Shown: positions 29,556-44,074 of the stretch, piece by piece | Layout: the number at the start of each line of letters is the position of its first letter | How positions within the stretch are numbered: the stretch's first letter is position 1 | Source of the DNA: Nocardioides pocheonensis | GTDB lineage: Bacteria > Actinomycetota > Actinomycetes > Propionibacteriales > Nocardioidaceae | Assembly (NCBI RefSeq): GCF_003725535.1 | Contig: NZ_RJSF01000005.1 | Location: forward strand, 1-64,000 | Direction: 5' to 3' | DNA length: 64,000 nt | Made by a program: the position numbers and the translations under genes | Notes under the pieces: model-generated | What the model was told of the DNA's origin: nothing | Databases searched by the model: none | What the model saw: the letters and a program-made list of their open reading frames with translations, nothing else

Positions 29556-30617
29556 ATGACCAGTCTGACCGATCTACGCGACGTGGTCGATGTCGTCATC
29601 GGCGTCGACACCCACGTCCACACCCACTCCGCTGCTGTGGTCGACACCGCGACCGGTGGCGTCCTCAACGAGATCACTGTCGAGGCGACAGCCCAGGGCT
29701 ATGCCGAGCTCGTGGCGTTTGCCAACAACCACGCCACGTTGCGGGCCTGGGCGATCGAAGGGACCAGTGGCCACGGCGCGGGCCTGAGCCGTCACCTGCT
29801 GGAGGCCTCGGAGATCGTCATCGAGTTGGACCGCCCGAAGCGGTCTGCGCGCCGCAACGGTGCGAAGTCCGATCCGCTCGATGCGATCCGGGCTGCGCGT
29901 GAAGCGATGTCCCGACCCAAGTTGGGGACCCCGCGCAGCGGGGGCGAACGCCAAGCCCTGTCGGTGCTCTTGGCTGCTCGCCGCTCGGCGATCAACGCCT
30001 CCACCGAGGCCCAGCTGCAGGTCTTCAGCCTGGTCATCGCCGCACCCGAACCCATCCGTGCCCGGTTCCGTGGGCAGAAGCTTGCCGCGATGCTCAACAC
30101 CGCCGCGGGCCTGCGGGTGCACGCCTCCTGGGACGTGGAGACGACCAGCACGGTCGTGGCGCTGCGGACCTTGGCTCGTCGCGCGCACGCGATGTTGAAG
30201 GAAGCACGTGAACTGCAGAAGGCGATCCTGGCCATCATCCGCAGCTGGCGACCCGACCTGCTCGAGGAGTTCGGCGTCGGACCGATCGTCGCCGCGACAG
30301 TGTTGTGCGCCTGGTCCCACCCTGGCCGGATCCACTCCGAGGCAGCGTTCGCGATGCTCGCCGGCGTGGCACCCATCCCTGCCAACAGTGGCCAAGTCAC
30401 CACCCGTTATCGACTCAATCGTTACGGCGACCGAAGCCTCAACACCGCCTTGCACACGGTCGTGCAGATCCGGATCCAGTACCAGCAAGCCACCCGCGAC
30501 TACGTCGCCCGCCGCACCGCCGAGGGCAAGACCAGCCGAGAGATCAAACGCTGCCTTGCCCGCTATGTCGCCCGAGACCTCTACCGCCTACTCGAAAACG
30601 GGGCCGCAGCTGCTTGA
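29556..30617 (+). CDS. IS110-family transposase (DEDD recombinase)
   Basis: A 353-residue transposase. The N-terminal RuvC-like DEDD domain shows Asp18 in VIGVDTH, Glu68 in WAIEGT, and Asp106/Asp109 in KSDPLDA. A helical linker spans ~125-230. The C-terminal Transposase_20 domain has EFGVGPIVAATVLCAW, AMLAGVAPIPANSG with the probable catalytic Ser278, and RYGDRSLNTALHTVV. All catalytic residues are present and the length is complete, so it may be active. GAAGGAGAGAACGC precedes the ATG at 29556. The base composition is slightly less GC-biased than its neighbours, consistent with transfer. Confidence 0.95.
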   Translation: MTSLTDLRDVVDVVIGVDTHVHTHSAAVVDTATGGVLNEITVEATAQGYAELVAFANNHATLRAWAIEGTSGHGAGLSRHLLEASEIVIELDRPKRSARRNGAKSDPLDAIRAAREAMSRPKLGTPRSGGERQALSVLLAARRSAINASTEAQLQVFSLVIAAPEPIRARFRGQKLAAMLNTAAGLRVHASWDVETTSTVVALRTLARRAHAMLKEARELQKAILAIIRSWRPDLLEEFGVGPIVAATVLCAWSHPGRIHSEAAFAMLAGVAPIPANSGQVTTRYRLNRYGDRSLNTALHTVVQIRIQYQQATRDYVARRTAEGKTSREIKRCLARYVARDLYRLLENGAAAA

Positions 30618-30650: not shown

Positions 30651-31544
30651 TCAGCGGGCGCCGCGCATCCAGTCCACGGTGCGGCGTGCGATCTCCGGGC
30701 CGGCGTCCTCCTGCACGAAGTGGCTGCCGGACAGGCGGGCGTGCGGCTGGTCGCGGGCGCCGGGCACATGCTGCTGGAGGGGGCCGTCGGCGCGGCCGAG
30801 GATGGGGTCGCTGTCGCCGAAGAGGGTGAGGAAGGGCTTCTCCCAGGCGCCGAGACGCGCCCACGCGGCCCGGTTGGCCGGCACGGCGGGGTCGTCGGGC
30901 GAGGTCGGCACCAGGCGCGGGAAGGCGCGGGCGCCGGCGAGGTGGCGACGGCTCGGGTACGGGGCGTCGTACGCCGCCCGCTCGGCCGGCGAGAGCGCGC
31001 GTTTCGTGCCGGTCGCGACGATCCGGCCGACCGGGAAGACCGGCGACCAGGTCGCGAAGGCACGCCAGACCCGGAAGGCGGGCGGGGTGCGCCGGTCGGC
31101 GGTCGGGAGGAAGCCGTTCGCGACCACGATCCGGTCGAACCGGTCGCCGTGCTCGGCGGCGAGGCGCAGGCCGAGCAGCGAGCCCCAGTCCTGGCAGATC
31201 AGCGTGATCCGGCGCAGGTCGAGCGCCTCCATCCACTCCCGCAGCCAGTCGACGTGGCCCTGGTAGGTGTAGTCGGAGAGCCGGGTCGGCTTGTCCGAGC
31301 GGCCGAAGCCGACCAGGTCGGGTGCGACCGCACGCAGCCCGGCCTCGGCGAAGACGGGCACCATGTGCCGGTAGAGGTAGCTCCACGACGGCTCGCCGTG
31401 CAGCATCAGCACGACCTCGGCGTCGCGCGGCCCCTCGTCGAGGTAGTGCACGCGCACGCCGTCGGCGAGCGTCACGTAGTGCGGCTCGAAGGGGTAGTCC
31501 GGCAGGTTCGCAAAGCGTTCGTCCGGGGTGCGCAGCAGGTCCAC
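30651..31544 (-). CDS. Haloalkane dehalogenase (alpha/beta hydrolase)
   Basis: A 297-residue alpha/beta hydrolase of the haloalkane dehalogenase type. It would cleave carbon-halogen bonds by hydrolysis. Seen: [13 protein letters not shown] (~49-61; oxyanion and halide region), nucleophile Asp119 in [12 protein letters not shown] followed by halide-binding Trp120, acid in LFGDSDPI (~240), and the catalytic His in [10 protein letters not shown] near 275. The Asp nucleophile instead of Ser distinguishes it from esterases. It starts with GTG at 31544, ten bases after the stop of the F420 reductase gene, with which it may be co-transcribed. The real substrate is unknown. Confidence 0.9.
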
Positions 31545-31554: not shown

Positions 31555-32241
31555 TCAGATGTCCGTGACGCGGACCCCGGCGTGCGCCTTGTAGCGCCGG
31601 TTGACGCTGATCAGGTTCGCGGTCAGGGCCTCGACCTGATGGGCGTTGCGGCGGCGGCCGGCGTACACGCCCCGCATGCCGGGCACGGTGTCGGCGAGCG
31701 CCTGGACCAGGTCGGTCGCCTCGCGCTCGTCGCCCAGCACCAGGACGTCGGTCTCGACCGACGTCACCTCCGGGTCCTCGAGCAGCGTGGCGCTGACGTT
31801 GTGGAACGCGCCCACGACCGTGCTCTCGGTGAGGATCGCCGCGGCCTGCTCGGTGGCGGAGCCCTCCTCGACCTTCAGCGCGTAGGCACCCTGCTTGTCG
31901 AAGCCGAGCGGGTTCACGCAGTCGACGACCACCTTGCCGGCGAGCGCCTGCTTCAGCGACTCGAGCAGCTGGTCGTGGCCCTCCCACGGCACGACGACGA
32001 GCACGAGGTCACCGGCCTCGGCGGCGCTCAGGTTGTCGGTGCCGGTGATCGCACCGCCCGTGGCTGCGGCGAGCTCGGCGCCGGTCGCCGCGCCCTTCTC
32101 CTGCGTGCGGCTGCCGATCACGACGGTCAGCCCGGCCTGGGCGAACCGACGGGCGAGCCCGCGGCCCTGGGGACCGGTGCCGCCGAGCACGGAGATGGTG
32201 AGGTTCTTCAGGTCGGGCACGGCGCTGTCTGCAGTGGTCAC
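31555..32241 (-). CDS. npdG: NADPH-dependent F420 reductase (F420:NADP oxidoreductase)
   Basis: A 228-residue enzyme that moves hydride between NADP(H) and coenzyme F420. Seen: the N-terminal NADP fold [24 protein letters not shown] (in parts, ~14-37), [11 protein letters not shown] (binding of the NADPH phosphate by Ser/Arg), [39 protein letters not shown], and [40 protein letters not shown] (in parts), diagnostic of the family. It starts with GTG at 32241, overlapping the regulator's stop by 4 bases; TACGCT 7 bases upstream suggests an additional leaderless promoter. It would supply F420H2 to enzymes such as the LLM protein at 36231. Confidence 0.92.
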
Positions 32242-33602
32242 GCGCCGTAGCGTACGGCCCCGGCCGTCGCCGCCGCCGCGAGAGCGCCAGCCACGTGAGA
32301 CGCCGCCTTCGTCTCGACGAGCCCGGCCGTCACGCGCAGGTGGTCGCCCCCGTTGCCGGACTCCTCCGGGCCGGGCGCCAGGAAGGGCGTGCCACCGGCC
32401 GCCCGGATGCCGAGCGTGGTCAGCTGCACGAGCGCGCCCCGCTCGTCGGCGACGGGGAGCCACAGGTTGATGCCGTCGGGCACGGCGAGCTCGATGCCGT
32501 GCTCGGCGAGGGCGGAGCAGAGGGCGGCCTGCCGCTCGGCGTACGTACGCCGGGCGACCTCGACCGCCGCCACCGAGGCCGGCTCGACGAGGAGGTCGAG
32601 GAGGATCGTCTGGAGCATCCGGGAGGTCCACCCTGCGCCGAGCATCCGGCGGGCCACCAGCCGGTCGACGAGCTCGCTGGGGCCGCCGAGCGCGGCGATC
32701 CGCAGGTCGGGGCCGTGCGACTTCGAGAACCCGCGGACGTGCATCACCTGGCCGGGGAGCCACCGGCCGAGCGAGACGTCCTCCCCCACGCTGATCGCCC
32801 CGGAGTGGTCGTCCTCGATCACGATCGCGGTCGACCGCGCGCGACGCACGGCACGGGCCAGGTCCTCGGCCCGGCGCGGCGACATCGAGACGCCGGTCGG
32901 GTTCTGCGCCCGCGGCTGCAGGACGATCGCGGCGGGCTTGCCCTTGAGCGCTCGGGTCAGGGACGCGACCGTGACGCCCTCGGCGTCCAGGTCGAGCGGC
33001 ACGATCTCGGCTCCGAGCACGTCGAGCATGTCCAGGAACGCCGGGAAGCCGGGGCTCTCGATCGCCACCCGGTCGCCGAAGCCGACGACCTGCTCGAGCG
33101 TGCGGACCACGGCGTCCTGGGCGCCGTTGACCACGGTGACCACCTCCGCCTCGAACGGCCAGGTCGAGGCGAGCACGTCACGCAGTTCCGGGAGCACCGG
33201 GGAGTCCTGGTAGACGTTCGTGTCCGCGGTCGGGCGCACCCGCCTCAGCGCCGGCGCGAGCGGGGGCAGCAGCGCCGGGTCGGGCGTGCCGCGCGAGAGG
33301 TCGAGCGGCAGGCCCTCGACGTACCCGACGAGACCTTGCACGCGCGGGCTGAGCCACGGCTTCGGCTCGGTGCGCACGAAGCTGCCGGCGCGGCCGCGCG
33401 ACTCGATCAGGCCGGCCCGACGCAACGCCTGCCAGGCCTCGCTGACCGTGGCGGGGCTGACGCCGAGGGTGGCCGCGACGTGGCGCACGGTGGGCAGCCG
33501 GTCACCGGGCGAGAGCTCGCCCTGGCGGATCTGCCGGGCCAGGGTGCCGGCGATGCCGCGCGGCGAGCGGTCGTCCAGATCTTCGAGCCTGGCCACCTTC
33601 AC
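32238..33602 (-). CDS. MocR/GabR-type regulator (GntR winged helix fused to aminotransferase class I domain)
   Basis: A 454-residue PLP-dependent regulator. Residues ~1-75 are a GntR winged helix (IAGTLARQIRQGELSPGDRLPTVRHVAATLGVSPATVSEAWQAL in parts). Residues ~90-454 are a fold type I aminotransferase domain with VNGAQDAVVRTLEQV, PRAQNPTG, IEDDHSG and the PLP lysine in RGFSKSHGPDLRIA. MocR/GabR proteins sense amino compounds through PLP and activate nearby catabolic genes. The GTG at 33602 is preferred because the divergent promoter lies upstream. The gene is divergent from the pyrimidine/hydantoin operon, its probable target, and overlaps npdG. Confidence 0.9.
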   Translation of the reverse strand: MKVARLEDLDDRSPRGIAGTLARQIRQGELSPGDRLPTVRHVAATLGVSPATVSEAWQALRRAGLIESRGRAGSFVRTEPKPWLSPRVQGLVGYVEGLPLDLSRGTPDPALLPPLAPALRRVRPTADTNVYQDSPVLPELRDVLASTWPFEAEVVTVVNGAQDAVVRTLEQVVGFGDRVAIESPGFPAFLDMLDVLGAEIVPLDLDAEGVTVASLTRALKGKPAAIVLQPRAQNPTGVSMSPRRAEDLARAVRRARSTAIVIEDDHSGAISVGEDVSLGRWLPGQVMHVRGFSKSHGPDLRIAALGGPSELVDRLVARRMLGAGWTSRMLQTILLDLLVEPASVAAVEVARRTYAERQAALCSALAEHGIELAVPDGINLWLPVADERGALVQLTTLGIRAAGGTPFLAPGPEESGNGGDHLRVTAGLVETKAASHVAGALAAAATAGAVRYGA

Positions 33603-33745
33603 CCCCGGGTCGATTCGTGCGCCCCGAACTCTTGCGCAGGGCTTTACGGCGGTGATACACCGGGAAACCAATCCGAAATGTTCAGAGCAGAAGATAACAG
33701 AAAATCCGACCTCGACGACCTCGAGGAATCCTGCGGAGGGGTGGC
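33603..33745. promoter_or_regulatory. Divergent promoter/operator region of the catabolic operon
   Basis: 143 bases, clearly richer in A/T than the surroundings (AGAAGATAACAGAAAATCC at 33690-33708). CGGTG, ATA, CACCG at 33650-33662 is a perfect small palindrome and a candidate site for the MocR-type regulator. GGAGGGGTGGC before the ATG at 33746 is the ribosome binding site of the first operon gene. No riboswitch is seen. Confidence 0.5.
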
Positions 33746-34594
33746 ATGGACACAGTGCGAGCAGCGATCTCACAGACGACCTGGACCGGCGACAAGGCGT
33801 CGATGCTCGACAAGCACGAGCAGTTCGCGCGTGACGCCCACGACCTGGGCGCGCAGGTGATCTGCTTCCAGGAGCTGTTCTACGGCCCGTACTTCGGGAT
33901 CACCCAGGACAAGAAGTACTACCGGTACGCCGAGCCGGCGGACGGCCCGATCGTGCAGCGCTTCGCCGCGCTCGCCCAGGAGCTCGGCATGGTGATGGTC
34001 CTGCCGATCTACGAGGAGGAGCAGACCGGCGTCTACTACAACACCACCGTGGTGGTCGACGCCGACGGCACGATCCTCGGCAAGTACCGCAAGAACCACA
34101 TTCCCCACGTGGAGAAGTTCTGGGAGAAGTTCTACTTCCGGCCCGGCAACCTGGGCTATCCCGTCTTCGACACCGCGGTCGGCAAGGTCGGCACCTACAT
34201 CTGCTACGACCGGCACTTCCCCGAGGGCTGGCGCGAGCTCGGCCTCAACGGCGCCCACATGGTCTTCAACCCCAACGCCACCAAGCCCGGCCTCTCCAAC
34301 CGGTTGTGGGAGATCGAGGGCCCGGCCGCCGCGGTCGCCAACGGCTACTTCGTGCTGCAGCCCAACCGGGTCGGCCTCGAGGACAACGAGTACGGCGACG
34401 AGGCGGTCAACTTCTACGGCACCAGCCAGATCATCGACCCGCGCGGCAACTACGTCGGCGAGCTGGGCAGTGACGAGAAGGAGGAGCTGATGGTCCGCGA
34501 CCTCGACCTGCGGATGGTGCAGGAGATGCGCGACGACTGGCAGTTCTACCGCGACCGGCGGCCCGACTCGTACACCCGGATCGCCCAGCCGTGA
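33746..34594 (+). CDS. Nitrilase-superfamily amidohydrolase, probable beta-ureidopropionase/N-carbamoyl amino acid hydrolase
   Basis: A 282-residue carbon-nitrogen hydrolase with the full Glu-Lys-Cys triad: Glu43 in CFQELFYGPYF, Lys116 in KYRKNHIP and Cys153 in YICYDRHFPE. EKFWEKFYFRPG and LSNRLWEIEGPAAAVANGYFV (in parts) are typical of beta-ureidopropionases and N-carbamoylases, which split N-carbamoyl-beta-alanine into beta-alanine, CO2 and ammonia. It is the first gene of the operon and precedes the hydantoinase, from which it is separated by a very large hairpin made of two repeat copies. Confidence 0.9.
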   Translation: MDTVRAAISQTTWTGDKASMLDKHEQFARDAHDLGAQVICFQELFYGPYFGITQDKKYYRYAEPADGPIVQRFAALAQELGMVMVLPIYEEEQTGVYYNTTVVVDADGTILGKYRKNHIPHVEKFWEKFYFRPGNLGYPVFDTAVGKVGTYICYDRHFPEGWRELGLNGAHMVFNPNATKPGLSNRLWEIEGPAAAVANGYFVLQPNRVGLEDNEYGDEAVNFYGTSQIIDPRGNYVGELGSDEKEELMVRDLDLRMVQEMRDDWQFYRDRRPDSYTRIAQP

Positions 34595-34604
34595 CCGCCC
34601 CGGA

Positions 34605-34704
34605 GGTTTCGAGGCTCGCTGGCGCCCGCACCTCAACCACCGGCGCCGGGGGCACGAGCCCGGTGGTTGAGGTGCGAGGAGCGCCAGCGACGAGCCTCGA
34701 AACC
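34605..34704. repeat. Inverted pair of palindromic-family repeats, giant hairpin
   Basis: The plus-strand copy (34605-34643, GGTTTCGAGGCTCGCT...CTCAACCACCGG) and its inverted copy (34660-34704, CCGGTGGTTGAGGTGCGAGG...GAGCCTCGAAACC) flank a 16-base GC-rich loop. The RNA would form a stem of about 38 base pairs with a small bulge (extra GA and G/AC in the second arm). It lies in the 136-base gap between the nitrilase and hydantoinase genes and may reduce or stabilise read-through. It is not coding. Confidence 0.85.
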
Positions 34705-34730
34705 ACCGACACCTGGAGGAGGACCCACCC

Positions 34731-36161
34731 ATGACGACCCTCATCAAGAACGGCACGGTGGTCAACGCCACCGGCGCCACCCCGGCCGACGTGCTCGTCG
34801 ACGGCGAGACGATCGTCGCGCTGCTCGCGCCGGGCTCGACAGCGCTCGGGCAGATCGACGCCGACACCGTGATCGACGCCGCCGGGAAGTACGTCATCCC
34901 CGGCGGCGTGGACGCGCACACCCACATGGAGCTGCCGTTCGGCGGCACGAACGCCTCCGACACGTTCGAGACCGGCACGCGCGCGGCTGCCTGGGGCGGC
35001 ACCACCTCGATCATCGACTTCGCGGTGCAGCGCTACGGCGAGCGCGTCGAGGAGGGCCTGGCCGCCTGGCACGCCAAGGCAGACGGAAACTGCGCGATCG
35101 ACTACGGCTTCCACCAGATCATCGGCGGCGTCGACGAGTTCTCCCTCAAGGCGATGGAGACGCTCGTCGACGAGGGCATCACGTCGTACAAGCTGTTCAT
35201 GGCCTACCCGGGCGTCTTCTACAGCGACGACGCCCAGATCCTCAAGGCGATGCAGCGGGCCGCCGACCTCGGTCTGCTCACGATGATGCACGCCGAGAAC
35301 GGCCCCGCGATCGACGTGCTGGCCGAGCAGCTGGTCAGCCAGGGCAAGACCGACCCGTACTTCCACGGCATCGCGCGCGCCTGGCAGATGGAGGAGGAGG
35401 CGACGCACCGCGCGATCATGCTCGCCAACCTCACCGGCGCACCCCTGTACGTCGTGCACGTCTCCGCCAAGCAGGCGGTCGAGCAGCTCGCCTGGGCCCG
35501 CGACAAGGGGCAGAACGTCTTCGGCGAGACCTGCCCGCAGTACCTCTACCTGTCCCTGGAGGAGCAGCTCGGCGCGCGCAGCGACGACTACGGCGCGTTC
35601 GAGGGCGCGAAGTGGGTGTGCTCGACGCCGCTGCGCTCGCGCGCCGAGGGCCACCAGGACTCCATGTGGCAGGCGCTGCGCACCAACGACCTGCAGATGG
35701 TCTCGACCGACCACTGCCCGTTCTGCATGAAGGACCAGAAGGAGCTCGGCAGGGGCGACTTCCGGGCGATCCCGAACGGCATCGGCTCGGTCGAGCACCG
35801 GATGGACCTGATGTACCAGGGCGTCGTGACCGGCGAGATCTCGCTGGCGCGCTGGGTCGAGCTGACCTCGACGACGCCGGCGCGGATGTTCGGCCTCTAC
35901 GGCAAGAAGGGCGTGATCGCGCCCGGTGCCGACGCCGACATCGTGGTCTACGACCCGAACGGGCACACGTCGATCGGCTACGGCGAGGGCAAGACGCACC
36001 ACATGAACATGGACCACTCCGCCTGGGAGGGCTTCGAGATCGACGGTCACGTCGACACCGTGATCTCCCGCGGCCGGGTGCTGGTCGACGGCGGGGCGTA
36101 CCTCGGCAGCCCGGGCCACGGGCGCTACCTCAAGCGCGGCCTCAGCCAGTACCTCATCTGA
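34731..36161 (+). CDS. hydA: Dihydropyrimidinase/hydantoinase
   Basis: A 476-residue cyclic amidase of the amidohydrolase superfamily, which opens dihydrouracil, dihydrothymine or 5-substituted hydantoins to N-carbamoyl amino acids. Metal-site residues are all visible: His63/His65 in DAHTHMELPF, the carbamylated Lys154 in TSYKLFMAYPG, His in MMHAENG (~187), His in VVHVSAKQA (~243) and Asp in VSTDHCPF (~328). The composite metal-dependent sequence and GEFLNG-free C-terminus agree with dihydropyrimidinases. CTGGAGGAGG lies 8 bases before the ATG at 34731. It would act between the LLM/F420 step and the nitrilase-type enzyme. Confidence 0.94.
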   Translation: MTTLIKNGTVVNATGATPADVLVDGETIVALLAPGSTALGQIDADTVIDAAGKYVIPGGVDAHTHMELPFGGTNASDTFETGTRAAAWGGTTSIIDFAVQRYGERVEEGLAAWHAKADGNCAIDYGFHQIIGGVDEFSLKAMETLVDEGITSYKLFMAYPGVFYSDDAQILKAMQRAADLGLLTMMHAENGPAIDVLAEQLVSQGKTDPYFHGIARAWQMEEEATHRAIMLANLTGAPLYVVHVSAKQAVEQLAWARDKGQNVFGETCPQYLYLSLEEQLGARSDDYGAFEGAKWVCSTPLRSRAEGHQDSMWQALRTNDLQMVSTDHCPFCMKDQKELGRGDFRAIPNGIGSVEHRMDLMYQGVVTGEISLARWVELTSTTPARMFGLYGKKGVIAPGADADIVVYDPNGHTSIGYGEGKTHHMNMDHSAWEGFEIDGHVDTVISRGRVLVDGGAYLGSPGHGRYLKRGLSQYLI

Positions 36162-36173
36162 CCCAGGTCCCCG

Positions 36174-36210
36174 GGGTTCGAGGCTCGCGAGCTCGCACCT
36201 CAACCACCGG
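36174..36210. repeat. Palindromic-family repeat copy
   Basis: A single-orientation copy (GGGTTCGAGGCTCGCGAGCTCGCACCTCAACCACCGG, quoted here in parts as GGGTTCGAGGCTCGC ... CACCTCAACCACCGG) in the 69-base gap between the hydantoinase and LLM genes. Its middle holds a CTCGCGAGCTCGC variation of the CTCGCTGGCGCTCGC segment, giving a self-complementary core. It is followed by the ribosome binding site AAAGGACC of the next gene. Confidence 0.75.
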
Positions 36211-36230
36211 GGTCGACGAAAGGACCCATC

Positions 36231-37259
36231 ATGGACTTCGGCGTCGTGCTGCAGACCAACCCGCCCGCGTGGCGCACGGTCGCACTGGCGAAGCAGGCGG
36301 AGGAGCACGGCTTCGACTACGTCTGGACCTTCGACTCCCACCTGCTCTGGCAGGAGCCGTACGTCATCTACAGCCAGATCCTCGCCGAGACCCGGCGCGT
36401 GATCGTCGGGCCGATGGTGACCAACCCCGCCACCCGCGACTGGACCGTCACCGCCTCGGTGTTCGCCACGCTCAACGAGATGTACGGCAACCGCACCGTG
36501 GTCGGCATCGGGCGAGGCGACTCGGCGGTGCGCGTGCTCAACGGCAAGCCGACCACCCTCAAGGAGGTCCGCGAGGCCACCCACGTGATCCGCGAGCTGG
36601 CCAACTGCCGCCCGGTCGAGCACAACGGCTCGACGCTGCAGTTCCCGTGGGCGCGCACGTCGGCGGTCGAGGTGTGGGTCGCGGCGTACGGGCCGCTGGC
36701 GCTGAAGACCGCCGGTGAGGTCGGTGACGGCTTCATCCTCCAGCTCGGCGACGTCGACATCGCGAAGTGGATGATCGCGCAGGTGCGCAAGGCGGCCGAG
36801 GACGCCGGCCGCGACCCCGAGGCGATCACCTTCTGCGTCGCCGCGCCGGCGTACGTCGGGTCCGACGACGCCGCGTCGGTCAAGCACATGCGCGAGCAGT
36901 GCCGCTGGTTCGGCGGCATGGTCGGCAACCACGTCGCCGACATCGTGGCCAAGTACGGCGAGGGCGCGGACTTCCCGCAGGTGCTCACCGACTACATCAA
37001 GGGCCGCGAGGACTACGACTACAACGAGCACGGCCGGGCCGGGAACACCCACACCGAGTTCGTGCCCGACGAGATCGTCGACCGGTTCTGCATCCTCGGC
37101 ACGCCCGAGCAGCACGTCGCCAAGCTCCAGGAGCTCAAGGCGATCGGGGTCGACCAGTTCGCGGTCTACCTCCAGCACGACAACAAGGAGGAGACCCTCC
37201 GCCAGTACGGCGAGACGATCATGCCCCGGCTGCGCGACCACGTGACGGCCAAGGCATGA
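36231..37259 (+). CDS. F420-dependent LLM-class oxidoreductase (MSMEG_2906/TIGR03842-like)
   Basis: A 342-residue luciferase-like TIM-barrel oxidoreductase: MDFGVVLQTNPPAWRTVALAKQAEEHGFDYVWTFDSHLLW (in parts, 1-40), GPMVTNPATRDWTVTASVFATLNEM (~61-85), VVGIGRGDSAVRVL, and a C-terminal GTPEQHVAKLQELKAIGVDQFAVYL (in parts). These proteins bind F420 (sometimes FMN) and reduce or oxidise small ring substrates. The location between the hydantoinase and the importer suggests it acts on the same pyrimidine- or hydantoin-type compound; it could be the missing first reduction step. AAAGGACCCATC supplies the ribosome binding site. The stop overlaps the permease start by ATGA. Confidence 0.9.
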   Translation: MDFGVVLQTNPPAWRTVALAKQAEEHGFDYVWTFDSHLLWQEPYVIYSQILAETRRVIVGPMVTNPATRDWTVTASVFATLNEMYGNRTVVGIGRGDSAVRVLNGKPTTLKEVREATHVIRELANCRPVEHNGSTLQFPWARTSAVEVWVAAYGPLALKTAGEVGDGFILQLGDVDIAKWMIAQVRKAAEDAGRDPEAITFCVAAPAYVGSDDAASVKHMREQCRWFGGMVGNHVADIVAKYGEGADFPQVLTDYIKGREDYDYNEHGRAGNTHTEFVPDEIVDRFCILGTPEQHVAKLQELKAIGVDQFAVYLQHDNKEETLRQYGETIMPRLRDHVTAKA

Positions 37260-38143
37260 CGGCTCCCTCGGCCTGGGCCCGGTTCGCGGTCCGGGCGCTG
37301 CTCGGCACGGGCGGCGTCCTCGCGGTCGCCGGCTTGTGGGAGGCGTACAAGGCACTCGGCCCCGACACAGGGGTCGTGGTCCACGGCGTCGTGGTACTCC
37401 CCCGCACCACCGACATGGCGATGCCGCACGTGTGGGACATGCTCCACAAGTTCTCCCAGCCGGTGAACATCTTCTCCGGCCACCAGACCGTCGGCTCGGC
37501 GGTGCTCGACGCCTGCGTCTTCTCGCTGAAGCTGGCGGCGACCGGCTGGCTGATCGGAGTGGTGGTCGGGTTCGCCCTGGCCGTGCTGATGGCGCGCTTC
37601 CGGCTCGCCGAGTCGGCGATGCTGCCCTGGATCGTGCTGAGCCAGACCGTCCCGCTGATCGCGATCGCGCCGCTCGTCCGCAGGTGGGGTTCGCAGATCC
37701 ACATCGGCGGCTGGACCTGGACCAGCGAGAACTCGGTCGCCGTCATCGCGGCGTACCTGGCGTTCTTCCCGGTCGCGGTCGGCGCCCTGCGCGGCCTCCG
37801 CTCCCCCGACGCCACCCACCTCGACCTGATGCACGCGTACGGCGTCGGCTGGTGGCGCGGCCTGGTCAAGCTGCGGCTGCCCGCCAGCGTGCCCTACCTG
37901 CTGCCCGCGCTGCGCCTCGCCGCCGCGAGCGCGGTCATCGGCACCGTCGTCGCCGAGGTCTCCATCGGCCTCCGCGGTGGTGTCGGCCGGATGATCATCG
38001 AGTACGCCCAGTCCGCCGGGGGCGACCCCGCGAAGCCGTGGGCGCCGATCTTCGGCGCGATCGGCGTCGGACTGGTCGCCGCCGGCGCGGTGGGCCTGAT
38101 CGGCCTGCTGCTCCGGCCCTACCGACGCGGGGAGGCGTCATGA
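37256..38143 (+). CDS. ABC importer permease (BPD_transp_1)
   Basis: A 295-residue inner-membrane permease with about six transmembrane helices. The EAA-type loop is at MHAYGVGWWRGLVKLRLPASVPYLLPALRLAAASAV (in parts, ~196-230), where it docks on the ATPase. Relatives include thiamine-precursor (ThiX), nitrate/taurine (SsuC) and hydantoin/pyrimidine permeases. A periplasmic-type insertion at ~35-75 (PRTTDMAMPHVWDMLHKFSQPVNIF in parts) resembles the N-terminal extension of pyrimidine-type permeases. It overlaps the LLM gene by 4 bases and the ATPase gene by 4 bases: one tightly coupled transport module. Confidence 0.9.
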   Translation: MTAPSAWARFAVRALLGTGGVLAVAGLWEAYKALGPDTGVVVHGVVVLPRTTDMAMPHVWDMLHKFSQPVNIFSGHQTVGSAVLDACVFSLKLAATGWLIGVVVGFALAVLMARFRLAESAMLPWIVLSQTVPLIAIAPLVRRWGSQIHIGGWTWTSENSVAVIAAYLAFFPVAVGALRGLRSPDATHLDLMHAYGVGWWRGLVKLRLPASVPYLLPALRLAAASAVIGTVVAEVSIGLRGGVGRMIIEYAQSAGGDPAKPWAPIFGAIGVGLVAAGAVGLIGLLLRPYRRGEAS

Positions 38144-38982
38144 CCCACGCCCTGACCGACGATGCCGTGACCAAGGACGGCTGCGCGATCCGGGCCAGCG
38201 GCGTCGGTCGCGTGTTCGCCGGCACCAAGGGACACCAGGTGATCGCGCTGGACGATGTGCACCTGGAGGTCGCCGAGGGCGAGTTCGTCTCGCTGATCGG
38301 CCCGAGCGGCTGCGGCAAGAGCACGCTGCTGCGGATCGTGGCCGACCTCGACCACCCGACCAGCGGGTCGCTCACCGTGTTCGGCAAGAGCACCCACCAG
38401 GCCCGCGTCGACCAGGACTACGGCATCGCCTTCCAGCAGGCCGGCCTGTTGCCGTGGCGCACCGTGGCCGCGAACGTCGGCCTCCCACTGGAGGTGCACG
38501 GCGTCGCGAGGTCCGACCGGCAGACCCGGGTCGAGGAGCTTCTCGAGCTGGTCGGACTGACCGACTTCGCCCGGTCCTATCCCGACCAGCTCTCCGGCGG
38601 CATGCAGCAGCGCGTCGCGATCGCCCGTGCGCTCGCGGAGAGCCCGCGCCTGCTGCTCATGGACGAGCCGTTCGGGGCGCTCGACGAGATCACCCGCGAG
38701 CGGATGCAGGCCGAGCTGGTCCGGATCTGTTCGGAGACCGGAGCGGCCGTGCTCTTCGTGACGCACTCGATCCCCGAGGCGGTCTTCCTCTCCGACCGCG
38801 TGGTCGTGATGACCCCACGGCCCGGGCGGATCATCGAGATCGTCGACTCCCGGCCGACGGCCGGGCACGCCCGTGACGACGAGTTCCGCGACGCGGAGGA
38901 GTTCTTCCACACCATCGCCCGCGTGCGCGAGCTGCTCCACGGCGGCCCGGTGGCCGCGGCCCGAGGAGTGGAGACCCGATGA
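38140..38982 (+). CDS. ABC importer ATP-binding protein (nitrate/sulfonate/pyrimidine type)
   Basis: A 280-residue ATPase with all motifs: Walker A IGPSGCGKST (~54-63), Q-loop AFQQAGLLPWRTV (~99), signature LSGGMQQRVAIARAL (~150), Walker B LLLMDEPFGALDE (~169) and the switch His in LFVTHSIPEAVF (~205). Closest to the SsuB/TauB/ThiZ group that pairs with BPD_transp_1 permeases and NMT1-type binding proteins. The C-terminal 40 residues (HARDDEFRDAEEFF...) are typical of the group. The ATG at 38140 overlaps the first permease, and its stop overlaps the second permease. Confidence 0.93.
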   Translation: MTHALTDDAVTKDGCAIRASGVGRVFAGTKGHQVIALDDVHLEVAEGEFVSLIGPSGCGKSTLLRIVADLDHPTSGSLTVFGKSTHQARVDQDYGIAFQQAGLLPWRTVAANVGLPLEVHGVARSDRQTRVEELLELVGLTDFARSYPDQLSGGMQQRVAIARALAESPRLLLMDEPFGALDEITRERMQAELVRICSETGAAVLFVTHSIPEAVFLSDRVVVMTPRPGRIIEIVDSRPTAGHARDDEFRDAEEFFHTIARVRELLHGGPVAAARGVETR

Positions 38983-39812
38983 GCCTGGCGGCCACCGAGC
39001 GGGCCGAGGCGACGCTGCGCATGCGGCCGCTGCGCGATGCCCGGTTCACCACGCTGCTGGCTCCCGCCCTGCTGGGCGTCGCGACGATCGGCCTCTGGCA
39101 GCTGGTGGTGGACGTCTTCAACATCGACGCGTTCATCGTCCCGTCGCCGCAGTCGATCTGGTCGGAGTTCCTCGACAGCCGCAGCTCGATCTGGCACGGC
39201 ATGCTCGGCACCGGCCGCAACGCGCTCTACGGCCTGCTGATCGGGGCCGCGCTCGGCATCCTCGGCGCGCTGGTCGCGAACGCCGTCAAGGTCATCGACC
39301 TGATGGCCGTGCCGATCGTCGCAGCGCTCTCGGTGGTGCCGATCGTCGCGCTGGCCCCGGTGCTCTACACGATGTTCGGCGCCGCGGCGAACACCGCGCG
39401 CGTGATCGTCGCCGCGCTCACCGTGATCATCCCGGTGTACGTCAACACCCTCCGCGGGCTGCGACAGGTCAAGGTCGTGCACCGCGAGCTCATGCACGTG
39501 TACGCCGCCCGCCCGGTGTTCGTGGCCCGGGCGGTCACGCTGCCGACCGCCTCGCCGTACGTGTTCACGGGCCTGCGGATCGCGAGCTCGCTGGCGGTGA
39601 TCTCGGCGCTGATCGCTGAGTACTTCGGCGGCCCGGTCGACGGGCTCGGCAAGGCGATCACCACCGCCGCCTCCAGCAGCAACTACCCCCTGGCGTGGGC
39701 CTACGTGCTCGGCTCGATCCTGCTCGGCCTCGCCTTCTACGTGGTCACCCTGCTCGTCGAGCTGCGCGTGGCCCGCCACAGTTCCCCGTCAACGTCGACG
39801 GTGTCCCTGTAA
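38979..39812 (+). CDS. ABC importer permease (second BPD_transp_1 subunit)
   Basis: A 277-residue permease with six transmembrane helices and the EAA-like loop MHVYAARPVFVARAVTLPTASPYVFTGLRIASSLAV (in parts, ~169-205). With the permease at 37256 it forms a heterodimeric channel. The ATG at 38979 overlaps the ATPase stop by 4 bases, with GAGGAGTGGAG upstream. A 74-base gap then leads to the binding-protein gene, which has its own strong ribosome binding site. Confidence 0.92.
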   Translation: MSLAATERAEATLRMRPLRDARFTTLLAPALLGVATIGLWQLVVDVFNIDAFIVPSPQSIWSEFLDSRSSIWHGMLGTGRNALYGLLIGAALGILGALVANAVKVIDLMAVPIVAALSVVPIVALAPVLYTMFGAAANTARVIVAALTVIIPVYVNTLRGLRQVKVVHRELMHVYAARPVFVARAVTLPTASPYVFTGLRIASSLAVISALIAEYFGGPVDGLGKAITTAASSSNYPLAWAYVLGSILLGLAFYVVTLLVELRVARHSSPSTSTVSL

Positions 39813-39886
39813 GTCCCTGCAAGTCCGACCCAGGAGCAGCACCACCTCACGCAGCACCACGTTGCACGACCAACCCGAGGAGAACC

Positions 39887-41038
39887 ATGAAGCCAACGTC
39901 CAACCGCAGGAGACGCGGGGCGATCGTCGCCGTCCTCGCCCTCGTCCTCGCGGCCGTGCTGGCCGCCTGTGGCAGCAGCAACGACGACTCCGGCGCGTCC
40001 GGCTCGAAGAAGCTCACGCCCGTCAAGCTCCAGCTGCAGTGGGTCGCGCAGGCGCAGTTCGCCGGCTACTACGCCGCCGTCGCGAAGGGCTACTACAAGG
40101 ACGAGGGCCTCGACGTGCAGATCGTCGAGGGCGGCCCGGACATCGTTCCGATCGACGCGCTGAGCGCCGGCGACGTCGACTACGCGATCTCGTGGGTGCC
40201 GAAGGTGCTCGGCTCGATCGAGGCCGGCGCGAAGGTCACCGACGTCGCCCAGGTCTTCGAGCGAAGCGCCACCACGCAGATCTCCTTCAAGGACAAGGGC
40301 ATCGCGGGGCCTGCGGACCTGAAGGGCAAGAAGGTAGGCAGCTGGGGCTACGGCAACGAGTGGGAGCTCTTCGCCGGCATGCAGAAGGCCGGGGTGACCC
40401 TCAAGGACATCTCCCTGGTGCAGCAGGCCTTCGACATGAACGGCTTCCTCGCCGGTGACATCGACGCCGCCCAGGCGATGACCTACAACGAGTACGCCCA
40501 GGTCCTGGAGACCAAGAACCCCAAGACCGGCAAGCTCTACACGCCCGACGACCTGAACGTGATCAACTGGAACGACGTCGGCACCTCGATGCTCCAGGAC
40601 GCGATCTGGGCGCCCACCGACAAGCTGTCGGACTCGAAGTTCGCGGACGAGACCGTGAAGTTCATCAAGGGCTCGATCAAGGGCTGGGTCTACGTGCGTG
40701 ACCACCCGGAGGACGCCGCCAAGATCGTCACCTCGGCCGGCTCGAAGCTCGGCGAGAGCCACCAACTGTGGATGACCAACGAGGTCAACAAGCTGATCTG
40801 GCCCTCCACGGGCGGTGCCGGGATGATCGACGAGAACGCCTGGAAGCAGACCGTCGACATCGCGCTGGGCACGAAGAACGACCAGGGCAAGACGATCATC
40901 ACCAAGGCGCCGCCGTCGACGGCGTACAGCAACGAGTACGTCCAGAAGGCGCTCGACGAGCTCAAGGCCGAGGGCGTCGACGTGATGGGCACCGGCTTCA
41001 AGCCGATGGACGTCACGCTCAAGGAGGGCGGCGCGTAG
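39887..41038 (+). CDS. NMT1/THI5-like ABC substrate-binding lipoprotein
   Basis: A 383-residue binding lipoprotein. Residues 1-27 are a lipoprotein signal peptide (basic RRRRGAIVAVLALVLAAVLAA read in parts) with lipobox LAAC and lipid-anchored Cys28. A Ser/Gly/Asp linker is followed by the periplasmic-type domain beginning TPVKLQLQWVAQAQFAGYYAAVAKGYYKDEGLDVQIVEGG (in parts), typical of NMT1/THI5-like proteins that bind pyrimidine precursors, riboflavin or related heterocycles. This agrees with a pyrimidine- or hydantoin-like cargo. CCGAGGAGAACC precedes the ATG at 39887. It is followed by two palindromes. Confidence 0.92.
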   Translation: MKPTSNRRRRGAIVAVLALVLAAVLAACGSSNDDSGASGSKKLTPVKLQLQWVAQAQFAGYYAAVAKGYYKDEGLDVQIVEGGPDIVPIDALSAGDVDYAISWVPKVLGSIEAGAKVTDVAQVFERSATTQISFKDKGIAGPADLKGKKVGSWGYGNEWELFAGMQKAGVTLKDISLVQQAFDMNGFLAGDIDAAQAMTYNEYAQVLETKNPKTGKLYTPDDLNVINWNDVGTSMLQDAIWAPTDKLSDSKFADETVKFIKGSIKGWVYVRDHPEDAAKIVTSAGSKLGESHQLWMTNEVNKLIWPSTGGAGMIDENAWKQTVDIALGTKNDQGKTIITKAPPSTAYSNEYVQKALDELKAEGVDVMGTGFKPMDVTLKEGGA

Positions 41039-41062
41039 GCGCCGGCCACCGCACACCAACCT

Positions 41063-41103
41063 CGGGACATGTCCCGGTCGGGTGGCCGCTCAGGCGGCCA
41101 CCC
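41063..41103 (+). terminator. Two palindromes after the binding-protein gene
   Basis: First CGGGACATGTCCCG (41063-41076), a perfect 14-base palindrome; then GGGTGGCCGC, loop TCAG, GCGGCCACCC (41080-41103), a perfect 10-bp hairpin. They lie in the 90-base gap between the transporter and the aminotransferase. The hairpin may be a partial terminator or an mRNA 3'-end protecting stem that raises binding-protein levels relative to downstream enzymes. Confidence 0.6.
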
Positions 41104-41128
41104 GGCCGGCCCGGAAGGACAACGAGAA

Positions 41129-42472
41129 ATGACGCTCACCGAAGGAACGCCGCAGGCCAGCGAGCACGCCGACCTCGACGACCTGACCTACCAGCTCGAC
41201 CGCGCCCACGTGTTCCACTCCTGGTCGGCCCAGGCCGCGCTGCACCCGTTGGTGCTCGCCGGCGGCTCGGGGTGCCGGGTGCACGACCACGCGGGCCGCA
41301 GCTACCTGGACTTCTCCAGCCAGCTGGTCAACCTGAACATCGGCCACCAGCACCCCAAGGTGGTCGCCGCGATCGTGGAGCAGGCCCAGACCCTGGCGAC
41401 GGTCGCACCGCAGCACGCCGTGCGGGCCCGCGGGGAGGCGGCGAAGCGGATCACGGCCCGCGCGCCCGACGGACTGAACAAGGTGTTCTTCACCAACGGC
41501 GGCGCCGACGCCAACGAGAACGCGATCCGGATGGCCCGGTTGCACACCGGGCGCGACAAGGTGCTCTCGACGTACCGGTCCTACCACGGCAACACCGGCG
41601 CCGCGGTGGTCGCGACCGGCGACTGGCGCCGGATCCCGAACCAGTACGCCCGCGCCCACGTGCACTTCTTCGGCCCGTACCTCTACCGCAGCGAGTTCTG
41701 GTCGGCGACCGCCGAGCAGGAGTCCGAGCGCGCGCTGCACCACCTGCGCCGCGTGATCGAGGCGGAGGGGCCGAGCAGCATCGCCGCGATCCTGCTCGAG
41801 ACGATCCCGGGCACCGCGGGCATCCTGATGCCGCCGCCGGGCTACCTCGCCGGAGTGCGCGAGCTGGCGAGCAAGCACGGCATCGTGCTGATCCTCGACG
41901 AGGTGATGGCCGGCTTCGGCCGCACCGGCGACTGGTTCGCCTTCGACGCCTACGACGTCGTGCCCGACCTGATCACCTTCGCCAAGGGCGTGAACTCCGG
42001 CTACGTGCCGGCCGGCGGCGTGATCATCGCCGACCACATCGCCGCCGACTTCGACGACACCGTGTTCCCCGGCGGGCTCACCTACTCCGGCCACCCGCTC
42101 GCGATGGCCGCGATCGTGGCGGCGCTGGACGCGATGGAGGAGGAGGGCATCGTCGAGAACGCCGCCACCGTCGGGCGTGACCACATCGGCCCGGCGCTCG
42201 CCGGACTCGCCGAGAAGCACGAGATCGTCGGCGAGGTGCGCGGCACCGGCGTCTTCTGGGCCCTCGAGCTGGTCGCCGACCGCGAGACCCGCGAGCCGGT
42301 GAGCGGCGCGGTGATGGCCCGGGTCAAGTCCGAGCTGCTCGCCCGCAACCTGCTCGCGTTCACCGCCGACAACCGGATCCACGTGGTCCCGCCCTGCATC
42401 GTCACGCCCGCCGAGGTGGCCGAGGCCGTCGCGGCGTACGACGAGGTGCTGGGGCTCCCGGACCTCTCCTAG
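41129..42472 (+). CDS. Class III PLP aminotransferase (beta-alanine:pyruvate type)
   Basis: A 447-residue fold type I aminotransferase of class III. Seen: the N-terminal FHSWSAQAALHPLVLAGGSGCRVHDHAGRSYLDF (in parts), FFTNGGADANENAIRMAR (PLP phosphate binding), YRSYHGNTGAA, LILDEVMAGFGRTG (~252-265) with the Asp that pairs with the pyridine N, and the PLP Lys286 in TFAKGVNSGY. It would take the amino group from beta-alanine or beta-aminoisobutyrate, giving malonate or methylmalonate semialdehyde, the substrate of the dehydrogenase coded next. GGAAGGACAACGAGAA precedes the ATG at 41129. Confidence 0.9.
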   Translation: MTLTEGTPQASEHADLDDLTYQLDRAHVFHSWSAQAALHPLVLAGGSGCRVHDHAGRSYLDFSSQLVNLNIGHQHPKVVAAIVEQAQTLATVAPQHAVRARGEAAKRITARAPDGLNKVFFTNGGADANENAIRMARLHTGRDKVLSTYRSYHGNTGAAVVATGDWRRIPNQYARAHVHFFGPYLYRSEFWSATAEQESERALHHLRRVIEAEGPSSIAAILLETIPGTAGILMPPPGYLAGVRELASKHGIVLILDEVMAGFGRTGDWFAFDAYDVVPDLITFAKGVNSGYVPAGGVIIADHIAADFDDTVFPGGLTYSGHPLAMAAIVAALDAMEEEGIVENAATVGRDHIGPALAGLAEKHEIVGEVRGTGVFWALELVADRETREPVSGAVMARVKSELLARNLLAFTADNRIHVVPPCIVTPAEVAEAVAAYDEVLGLPDLS

Positions 42473-42483
42473 CCAACTCACCA

Positions 42484-42556
42484 GGTTTCGACCCTTCGAG
42501 GCTCGCAAGCTCGCACCTCAGGACAAGGGCGAAGCGCTCCTCGCACCTCAACCACC
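42484..42556. repeat. Composite palindromic-family repeat
   Basis: In the 102-base gap between aminotransferase and dehydrogenase, a rearranged copy: GGTTTCGACCCTTCGAGGC, then TCGCAAGCTCGCACCTCA, then a second partial unit CTCCTCGCACCTCAACCACC. It looks like two repeats joined or one repeat interrupted by GGACAAGGGCGAAGCG. Not coding. Confidence 0.65.
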
Positions 42557-42574
42557 CGCACTGGAGGGAAACCC

Positions 42575-44074
42575 ATGAACGACCAGAACATCCTCGATCA
42601 CTGGATCAACGGCGGCCCGTCCGCCGGCACGGGCACGCGCACCGGCGACGTCTACGACCCCGCGAAGGGCATCGTGCAGAAGCAGGTGCGATTCGCGTCC
42701 GCCGGAGACGTGGACACCGCGGTGGCAGCGGCAGCCAAGGCCTTCGGCGACTGGGGGCAGAGCTCGATCGCCCGCCGCCAGCAGGTGATGTTCGCCTTCC
42801 GCGAGCTGCTCAACAGCCGCAAGGGCGAGCTCGCCCAGATCCTCACCGCCGAGCACGGCAAGGTGCTCTCCGACGCGGCCGGCGAGATCGCCCGCGGCCT
42901 GGAGGTCGTCGAGTTCGCCTGCTCCCTGCCGCACCTGACCAAGGGCGCGTTCAGCGAGCAGGTCTCGACCGACGTCGACGTCTACACCCTCAAGCAGCCG
43001 GTGGGCGTCGTCGGCATCATCAGCCCGTTCAACTTCCCGGCGATGGTGCCGATGTGGTTCTTCCCGATCGCGATCGCCACCGGCAACACCGTGGTGCTCA
43101 AGCCGAGCGAGAAGGACCCGTCGGCGGCGAACTGGATGGCCGAGCTGATGGCCGAGGCCGGCCTGCCCGCGGGCGTCTTCAACGTCGTGCACGGCGACAA
43201 GGAGGCCGTCGACGCGCTGCTGGTGCACCCCGACGTCGCCTCGATCTCGTTCGTCGGCTCGACCCCGATCGCGAAGTACGTCTACGAGACCGGCACGGCC
43301 CACGGCAAGCGGGTCCAGGCGCTCGGCGGCGCCAAGAACCACATGCTGGTGCTGCCCGACGCCGACCTCGACCTGGTCGCCGACGCCGCGGTGAACGCCG
43401 GCTTCGGCTCGGCCGGCGAGCGGTGCATGGCGATCAGCGTGGTGCTCGCGGTCGACACGATCGCCGACCCGCTGATCGAGAAGATCACCGAGCGGATGGC
43501 CACGCTGAAGACCGGCGACGGCCGGCGCTCGTGCGACATGGGCCCGCTGATCACGCGCGAGCACCGCGACAAGGTGGCGTCGTACGTCGACCAGGCGAGC
43601 ACCGACGGGGCCACCGTGGTCGTCGACGGGCGCGACGTCGAGGTCGACGGCGAGCCGGACGGCTTCTGGCTCGGGCCGACCCTGATCGACCAGGTGCCGA
43701 CCACGTCGAAGGTCTACACCGACGAGATCTTCGGCCCGGTGCTGTCCGTGGTGCGGGTCTCGGGCTACCCCGAGGGCCTCGAGCTGATCAACTCCGGTCC
43801 GTACGGCAACGGCACCGCGATCTTCACCAACGACGGCGGCGCTGCCAGGCGCTTCCAGCGCGAGGTGGAGGCCGGCATGGTCGGCGTCAACGTGCCGATC
43901 CCGGTGCCGGTCGCCTACCACTCCTTCGGCGGGTGGAAGGGATCGCTGTTCGGCGACGCCAAGGCCTACGGCCCGCACGGCGTGGAGTTCTTCACCCGCG
44001 AGAAGGCGGTCACCGCCCGCTGGCTCGACCCCAGCCACGGCGGCCTCAACCTCGGCTTCCCGCAGCACTCCTGA
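42575..44074 (+). CDS. mmsA: CoA-acylating methylmalonate-semialdehyde dehydrogenase
   Basis: A 499-residue aldehyde dehydrogenase of the MmsA class, turning malonate or methylmalonate semialdehyde plus CoA into acetyl- or propionyl-CoA with release of CO2. Seen: HWINGGPSAGTG at the start, QPVGVVGIISPFNFPAMVPMWFFPIAIATGN (in parts; Rossmann), KPSEKDPSAANWMAEL, VGSTPIAKYVYETG, KNHMLVLPDAD and catalytic Cys284 in GSAGERCMAIS. As in other MmsA enzymes the usual general-base Glu is absent, which favours CoA as acceptor. It ends the operon and completes the beta-amino acid route. CTGGAGGGAAACCC precedes the ATG at 42575. Confidence 0.95.
   Translation: MNDQNILDHWINGGPSAGTGTRTGDVYDPAKGIVQKQVRFASAGDVDTAVAAAAKAFGDWGQSSIARRQQVMFAFRELLNSRKGELAQILTAEHGKVLSDAAGEIARGLEVVEFACSLPHLTKGAFSEQVSTDVDVYTLKQPVGVVGIISPFNFPAMVPMWFFPIAIATGNTVVLKPSEKDPSAANWMAELMAEAGLPAGVFNVVHGDKEAVDALLVHPDVASISFVGSTPIAKYVYETGTAHGKRVQALGGAKNHMLVLPDADLDLVADAAVNAGFGSAGERCMAISVVLAVDTIADPLIEKITERMATLKTGDGRRSCDMGPLITREHRDKVASYVDQASTDGATVVVDGRDVEVDGEPDGFWLGPTLIDQVPTTSKVYTDEIFGPVLSVVRVSGYPEGLELINSGPYGNGTAIFTNDGGAARRFQREVEAGMVGVNVPIPVPVAYHSFGGWKGSLFGDAKAYGPHGVEFFTREKAVTARWLDPSHGGLNLGFPQHS

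Follow-up and report, generated by a model that had tools for sequence, protein, structure and literature searches.

A predicted F420H2-dependent uracil/thymine reductase in a probable pyrimidine catabolic operon of Nocardioides pocheonensis

We analyzed a 64,000-nucleotide stretch of the Nocardioides pocheonensis genome (contig NZ_RJSF01000005.1, positions 1 to 64,000; hereafter, the window), in which the region 31555–44074 encodes a luciferase-like monooxygenase (LLM)-class oxidoreductase of the TIGR03842 family together with an NADPH:F420 reductase (NpdG) and enzymes typical of pyrimidine breakdown. Comparative genomics indicates that this locus is very probably a reductive pyrimidine catabolic operon in which the first enzyme is replaced by the TIGR03842 protein, acting as an F420H2-dependent uracil/thymine reductase, and that several proteobacterial lineages probably keep their F420 genes because of this reductase. 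We regard this as a well-supported functional prediction.

Gene content of the locus and its first catalytic step

All genes named in the preliminary description of this DNA were recovered intact as open reading frames with profile matches (Table 1), including the overlap of npdG with the MocR-type regulator gene and the divergent operon. The GTG start of npdG and the stop of the MocR gene share 4 nt (GTGA), as confirmed by translation. The plus-strand unit (33746–44074) diverges from the MocR-npdG pair, leaving a gap of about 140 bp if MocR starts at 33602, and successive starts and stops overlap within the permease-ATPase-permease core of its ATP-binding cassette (ABC) importer.

In the proposed scheme, uracil or thymine would enter through the ABC importer, NpdG, by family assignment, would use NADPH to generate F420H2, and the TIGR03842 protein would deliver the hydride of F420H2 to pyrimidine C6, yielding dihydrouracil or dihydrothymine; this is the new step. 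The chemistry after ring reduction is that of the classical reductive pyrimidine pathway. Judging from family assignments, dihydropyrimidinase would open the ring, the nitrilase-type hydrolase would split off NH3 and CO2, leaving beta-alanine or beta-aminoisobutyrate, and the class III transaminase would form the semialdehyde which MmsA would convert to acetyl- or propionyl-coenzyme A (CoA). Both divergent units are probably under the control of the MocR protein. The locus shares with the known pathway, initiated by PydA or PreTA, the dihydropyrimidinase, MmsA and the predicted intermediates, with the nitrilase-type protein as candidate N-carbamoyl hydrolase and the class III aminotransferase as candidate beta-amino acid transaminase, but differs in that its genome has no PreA/PydA match, the first step being assigned to the F420H2-dependent LLM enzyme with NpdG supplying the electrons. 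Since the usual first enzyme is missing, we class the locus as a variant of that pathway.

The usual pyrimidine-ring reductases are PF01180-type iron-sulfur flavoproteins. In the source genome, a 4.92-Mb assembly in 50 contigs with a completeness of 99.78%, a single gene exceeds the PF01180 cut-off, a quinone-dependent PyrD located between CarB- and PyrF-type genes, and the second match is a short piece of 24.1 bits, below the cut-off of 27. The genome yielded no match to the PreA model NF006183 at E ≤ 1e-50 or to the RutA model TIGR03612 at E ≤ 1e-60. The earlier remark that no PydA or PreTA is seen therefore holds genome-wide, with no PydA homolog elsewhere on the contigs. The gathering of the later steps in one operon, together with the absence of any other ring-reducing enzyme from a 99.8% complete genome, supports the LLM protein as the first enzyme. 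The genes for F420 synthesis are present, with CofH at 523.5 bits (cut-off 374.1), CofD at 385.4 (257.45) and CofG at 462.9 (213.35), the CofG and CofH domains sharing one open frame.

PreT is a subunit of dihydropyrimidine dehydrogenase, and a YgfK/PreT-like gene at 49859–51487 was considered for this role. It was rejected, being GltD-like, adjacent to PorA/PorB-like genes and encoded in a genome without PreA. The minus-strand region 49859–54367 comprises this GltD-like gene and PorB/PorA-like oxoacid:ferredoxin oxidoreductase genes.

As for the LLM protein itself, it is a full-length member of TIGR03842, covering positions 1–328 of the 329 in the profile with a score about twice the curated cut-off. 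The family, designated F420_CPS_4043 and typed as hypoth_equivalog, bears a name that carries no function; the function is proposed here. A Mer model ranks second with 142 bits, and the Mer model TIGR03555 gives 133.3 bits against a cut-off of 348.7, which is not passed. The predicted structure (39-row alignment, no ligand in the model) has a mean predicted local distance difference test (pLDDT) score of 90.4 and a predicted template modeling (pTM) score of 0.90. Its nearest solved folds are Mer structures, including the F420-bound entries 8qpl and 1z69, followed by other LLM-class F420 enzymes and, lower down, by luciferases and flavin monooxygenases. The eight top Mer rows share 24–28% identity with the window protein. 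This proximity to F420-bound Mer is suggestive only as a hint of F420 use by the LLM enzyme. Like Mer, the window protein has the fold known with bound F420; unlike Mer, it misses the cut-off of the hidden Markov model and carries Val6 at the position of Glu6 (alignment to 8qpm), the residue altered in entry 8qq8 and which we take to be catalytic in Mer. Residues invariant in TIGR03842 include Trp226, Asn233, His234, Arg259, Tyr262, Tyr264 and His267 (numbering of the window protein) and may form the substrate site. In a quickly built tree of 67 proteins, whose root is unsure and whose outgroup branch is very long, the proteobacterial group adjoins Chloroflexota, and a large group is mostly composed of Actinomycetota. 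Linkage to dihydropyrimidinase is present in the Chloroflexota, Actinomycetota and Pseudomonadota branches alike.

Genomic company of TIGR03842

To place the window in its phylum, 396 evenly drawn genomes were searched with four models. TIGR03842 was detected in 79 of them, dihydropyrimidinase (TIGR02033) in 122 at E ≤ 1e-80 (114 over the cut-off), CofH in 239 at E ≤ 1e-50 (188 over the cut-off) and PreA in 12 at E ≤ 1e-50 (2 over the cut-off). Dihydropyrimidinase accompanies TIGR03842 in 74/79 genomes, as opposed to 48/317 genomes lacking the LLM gene (Fisher p 7e-41, kinship ignored), and the five exceptions (our genomes G149, G216, G234, G371 and G387) are draft assemblies with 220–710 contigs each. 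PreA was found in 0/79 and 12/317 genomes, respectively; this contrast alone is not significant (p 0.14) because PreA is rare in the phylum. CofH (E ≤ 1e-50) occurs in 68/79 versus 171/317 genomes, and 8 of the 11 LLM-positive genomes without it have CofD over the cut-off. Within one genus of the set (g12), two LLM-positive genomes possess CofD, CofG and dihydropyrimidinase, while G257, which lacks the LLM gene, has none of the three.

We inspected the gene context in the 78 other LLM-positive genomes of the phylum at 79 loci (L040–L118), leaving aside the additional, partial matches of G106 and G227. Here and below, the neighborhood tallies come from tblastn with one or a few queries for each role, at thresholds of 30% identity and 50% coverage, so that distant homologs are missed, and a match to a class III aminotransferase or an ABC ATPase lacks specificity; the distances of F420 and pyrimidine-type genes from the LLM gene were scored at 28% identity, and complete cof sets at 28% identity and 40% coverage. 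Dihydropyrimidinase is found at 56 of the 79 loci, a carbamoyl hydrolase at 66, and at least one of them at 67, thus the arrangement in the window is not due to chance. The class III aminotransferase is present at 50 loci, an NCS1 permease at 35 and MmsA at 17.

Beyond the phylum, a scan of genome contigs with a 22-member family alignment matched at least 596 stretches, 582 of which encode relatives. The best 80 of these 582, ranked by likeness to the Leisingera protein and hence leaning to Proteobacteria, are our named loci (L127–L206): 57 from Pseudomonadota (33 alpha, 24 gamma), 17 from Chloroflexota, three from Actinomycetota, one from Acidobacteriota and two unassigned. At 50/57 proteobacterial loci, genes for F420 synthesis, npdG or an F420-0 importer are found no farther than 12 kb from the LLM gene, and 32/57 hold all of cofG, cofH, cofD, cofC, cofE and npdG; pyrimidine-type genes (dihydropyrimidinase, hydrolase, NCS1 or RutR-like) occur within the same distance at 38/57. 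npdG neighbors the LLM gene at 43 of the 80 loci, all from Pseudomonadota, and at 42 it is on the same strand within 300 bp. Dihydropyrimidinase or a carbamoyl hydrolase surrounds the LLM gene at 48/80 loci, a RutR-like gene is present at 29, and pyrimidine-type genes were detected at 15 of the 17 Chloroflexota loci. Whole-genome searches for PreA and RutA covered 44 LLM-positive genomes out of those behind the named loci, and in 37 of them neither protein scored over its cut-off.

A search of plasmid proteins for the LLM enzyme returned 12 records, ten of them from Leisingera. On the Leisingera caerulea plasmid, genes for an NCS1 nucleobase symporter, dihydropyrimidinase, a Zn-dependent hydrolase, an aminotransferase and pntBA stand together, and the divergent side carries cofG-cofH-cofD-cofC-cofE-npdG-LLM and a TetR gene. 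The TetR protein is nearest to RutR, although its TIGR03613 scores of 194 bits in Leisingera and 188 in Halomonas do not reach the cut-off of 368. The aminotransferase of Leisingera scores 749.9 against the cut-off of 500 for NF052567, the AptA omega-aminotransferase model. The same cof-npdG-LLM operon is found with an ABC transporter on a Paracoccus alcaliphilus plasmid, with no annotated pyrimidine hydrolases in the 31-kb stretch inspected. In turn, the Paracoccus denitrificans cluster (L130) unites NCS1, dihydropyrimidinase, hydrolase and cofGHDCE-npdG-LLM, and the genome of strain DSM 413 (G399) gave no PreA or RutA match. The pntA/pntB genes are present in the stretch at 9/80 loci, belonging to Leisingera, Halomonas, Marinobacter, Marinobacterium, Motiliproteus and a Rhodococcus; their products could form NADPH from NADH at the expense of the proton gradient.

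Two further arrangements were observed among the alphaproteobacterial loci. L183 and L188, from metagenome-assembled genomes, carry TIGR03842-like matches in tandem, two to three per locus, next to cof genes and npdG. Marine assemblies (L142, L145–L148) display a cofD-cofE-npdG-LLM-hydrolase-dihydropyrimidinase-ABC order with cofG, cofH and cofC unmatched in the stretch, and uptake of Fo is possible there.

The tie between F420 and the LLM enzyme is closest in the family around Halomonas (G407), which we take to be Halomonadaceae and in which the exclusivity of F420 for the LLM enzyme was examined. Among 101 genomes of this family, TIGR03842 occurs in five and CofD in exactly the same five, within a few kb of each other; the chance of two identical sets is 1.3e-8 (kinship ignored). 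In that sample, F420 synthesis is therefore present only where the LLM gene is. A RutR-like gene lies beside the operon at all five loci, and the stretch includes an NCS1 permease and a hydrolase of the Zn-dependent type at four; the fifth LLM gene sits at a contig end, and CofG was not seen in its stretch.

A different organization is seen in Devosia, where the LLM gene comes after genes encoding Fgd, CofE and three putative components of an F420-0 ABC transporter (NCBIfam naming). The Fgd of Devosia sediminis scores 509.6 bits against 420 for TIGR03554; the F420-0 binding protein exceeds its cut-off, and the permease and ATPase fall below theirs. The cluster of CofE, F420-0 importer and LLM genes is found in D. 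sediminis (L168, 4871–11002) and at L167, L169, L172, L175 and L190, five of the six also carrying Fgd; in Pelagibacterium lacus the same set occurs and Fgd is not in the stretch. No pyrimidine hydrolase was detected by tblastn in the Devosia and Pelagibacterium stretches. In Cellulomonas phragmiteti (L206:466–4300) and G225 (L207), the pyrimidine operon has genes for CofD and an F420-0 importer close by, L207 additionally holding CofE and Fgd-like genes. CofG gave no match at E ≤ 1e-5 in the five Devosia/Pelagibacterium genomes searched, in C. phragmiteti or in G225; G268 likewise lacks a CofG match, with no importer seen in the 32 kb around its LLM gene. The Devosia-type clusters look like F420 salvage, and we infer that the F420-0 cofactor is imported for the LLM enzyme. 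It seems fairly likely that several proteobacterial lineages acquire and keep F420 synthesis for uracil/thymine reduction alone, on plasmids in Leisingera and P. alcaliphilus, and that Devosia, Pelagibacterium and a Cellulomonas import F420-0 or Fo instead.

Counter-evidence and alternative explanations

The expectation that the LLM gene would co-occur with npdG, with dihydropyrimidinase and with loss of PydA/PreA was borne out for dihydropyrimidinase, for the absence of PreA and RutA in most of the named genomes and, among Proteobacteria, for F420 genes at large. It failed in two respects. Neither npdG nor cof genes were detected near the LLM gene at any of the 79 other loci of the phylum with the tblastn queries used, thus the adjacency of npdG in the window is not general there; and PreA scored over the cut-off in 6 of the 44 LLM-positive genomes searched (three Leisingera, Aquamicrobium defluvii, Devosia psychrophila and Limimaricola hongkongensis). 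Several other observations also speak against the proposed function. Three more of the 44 genomes have a weaker PreA-model match below the cut-off, and RutA is encoded in one of the 45 genomes searched for it. In the phylum, 48 genomes possess dihydropyrimidinase without the LLM gene, with a PreA match in just two; three LLM-positive drafts of 220–370 contigs (G119, G160, G259) have neither CofH nor CofD; and 12/79 loci show neither dihydropyrimidinase nor hydrolase, six of these being stretches shorter than 7 kb. Among the named loci, 32/80 are devoid of dihydropyrimidinase and hydrolase in the stretch (24 of the 32 hold F420 genes, and seven neither these nor any pyrimidine-type gene), and dihydropyrimidinase is in the stretch at just one of the five Halomonas-family loci. 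In Chloroflexota, an F420 gene is nearby at just 1/17 loci, and five LLM-positive genomes contain no intact CofG (four without a match, one with a partial match that has an internal stop and is below the cut-off); the marine alphaproteobacterial assembly G429 likewise has no intact CofG. Finally, the support comes from comparative genomics, and the activity of the LLM protein is a predicted one. The presence of dihydropyrimidinase does not by itself demonstrate pyrimidine reduction; since this enzyme has other uses, the case rests on the conserved company of the LLM gene, the F420 genes and the whole set. On that ground, comparative genomics supports the idea, put forward in the preliminary description, that the LLM enzyme would reduce uracil/thymine with F420H2 supplied by NpdG.

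The same description offered a hydantoin as an alternative substrate, with the LLM enzyme performing side-chain chemistry. In that case, dihydropyrimidinase would act as D-hydantoinase, the nitrilase as N-carbamoylase and the LLM enzyme in redox reactions of the side chain. TIGR02033 is itself named D-hydantoinase, solved relatives of the window enzyme include D-hydantoinases, and allantoin transporters are known among NCS1 permeases. Opening of the hydantoin ring, however, requires no reductase, yet the LLM gene and the hydrolases stay together across three phyla; the reductase family stays the same even though the hydrolase is a nitrilase in the window and a Zn-type enzyme in Leisingera and Halomonas. 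MmsA, the AptA-type aminotransferase of Leisingera and the RutR-like regulators of two proteobacterial clusters fit uracil/thymine better, which makes the hydantoin explanation unlikely and leaves it disfavored. It is still harder to believe that the F420 enzyme acts past the ring steps, e.g., converting malonate semialdehyde to 3-hydroxypropionate. F420-dependent LLM enzymes do include an alcohol dehydrogenase (1rhc, among the fold matches), but the MmsA of the operon already takes the aldehyde, and ring reduction would be left without a PreA or RutA enzyme in the 37 genomes mentioned above. RutA is also an LLM-class enzyme, which opens the ring oxidatively with FMN (flavin mononucleotide) and O2, and its products need no dihydropyrimidinase. 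The TIGR03842 protein shares with the Rut pathway the enzyme class of the first step, the context of pyrimidine breakdown and, in proteobacterial clusters, a RutR-like regulator. A RutA-type monooxygenase is nevertheless the least credible of the alternatives: our locus is linked to dihydropyrimidinase, genes for F420 synthesis, import and reduction adjoin the LLM gene, and the RutA model is not among the 25 listed of the 28 NCBIfam matches of the window protein.

Reduction of another N-heterocycle, such as yanthine in uric acid breakdown, has a precedent of the same logic, since PMC12507026 reports Chloroflexota uricolytic clusters for which it proposes a PF00296 protein, putatively F420-dependent, as a substitute for YgfK or for UacX, a PF01180 protein. 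Substrate and partners differ there from those of TIGR03842. We surveyed the window and 168 loci by tblastn with eight Escherichia coli uric acid genes. XdhA/XdhD-type genes (28–31% identity) are scattered over five loci (L045, L063, L102, L113, L189), and of the remaining partner genes SsnA gave one distant match (24%), YgeY two (23–25%), and YgeW and YgeX none. The sole YgfK match is the GltD-like gene of the window, about 6 kb past the operon and beside oxoacid:ferredoxin oxidoreductase genes, and the 98 HyuA matches are the dihydropyrimidinase-type genes themselves. A uricolytic role is thus highly improbable, and reduction of uracil/thymine by the TIGR03842 enzyme remains the explanation we favor.

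Features of the locus and implications

Table 1. Genes and a conserved intergenic block at the predicted pyrimidine catabolic locus (window coordinates).
Feature	Position	Strand	Evidence and remarks
npdG, NADPH:F420 reductase	31555..32241	-	TIGR01915 226.6 bits, cut-off 149.8; GTG start
MocR-type regulator (GntR + aminotransferase)	32238..33602	-	PF00392 + PF00155; best NCBIfam PRK15481 242.6 bits, below cut-off
Conserved block GAAATGTTCA..GATAACAGAA in divergent intergenic gap	33675..33702	.	Like block upstream of same operon in L065, L107, L056 (by eye)
Nitrilase-superfamily N-carbamoyl hydrolase, predicted beta-ureidopropionase	33746..34594	+	PF00795
Dihydropyrimidinase	34731..36161	+	TIGR02033 532.6 bits, cut-off 393.25; best solved relative 3sfw dihydropyrimidinase
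LLM-class oxidoreductase TIGR03842, predicted F420H2-dependent uracil/thymine reductase	36231..37259	+	586 bits, cut-off 295.45
ABC importer permease 1	37256..38143	+	PF00528; start overlaps LLM stop
ABC importer ATPase	38140..38982	+	PF00005
ABC importer permease 2	38979..39812	+	SsuC/SaoP/NtrB permease models, all below cut-off
NMT1/THI5-like substrate-binding lipoprotein, predicted pyrimidine binder	39887..41038	+	PF09084 1.3e-38; putative start
Class III aminotransferase, predicted beta-alanine/beta-aminoisobutyrate transaminase	41129..42472	+	NF004718 738.6 bits, cut-off 472; putative start, frame opens 41069
MmsA, CoA-acylating (methyl)malonate-semialdehyde dehydrogenase	42575..44074	+	TIGR01722 683.4 bits, cut-off 448.5

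Some of the assignments in Table 1 call for comment. The nitrilase scores 238 bits with TIGR03381, below the cut-off of 410, and exceeds the cut-off of no NCBIfam model; its nearest solved relatives are, by name, N-carbamoylputrescine amidohydrolase and beta-ureidopropionase. The aminotransferase model NF004718 represents a subfamily named "hypothetical protein." The GTG start of the MocR gene at 33602 is likely, the open frame extending to 33773. By eye, the conserved block in the divergent gap contains a TGTTCN5GAACA inverted repeat in L065 and L056, and may represent a MocR operator or a promoter.

The surroundings of the locus include a haloalkane-dehalogenase-like gene (30651–31544; 463 bits vs 265) located 10 bp downstream of npdG, a homolog of which is also found near the L053 cluster, and an IS110-family transposase gene (29481–30617) barely over its cut-off. 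MmsA is followed by an acyl-CoA dehydrogenase gene (44915–46084), whose best model is acryloyl-CoA reductase (383 bits, below the cut-off of 640).

In the open-access literature, we found no paper mentioning TIGR03842 and no report of an F420-dependent pyrimidine reductase, the latter search extending over titles and the beginnings of abstracts, with subscription papers and bioRxiv outside its scope. If the prediction is correct, a widespread F420 family of no known function would gain a concrete reaction, and pyrimidine-ring reduction a second enzyme class beside the PF01180-type iron-sulfur flavoproteins. It would also suggest why some marine and soil proteobacteria make F420, and the level of this cofactor in P. 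denitrificans, which carries the L130 cluster, should then increase during growth on uracil. Import of the Devosia type would, in turn, constitute a route of F420 salvage coupled to the breakdown of nucleobases.

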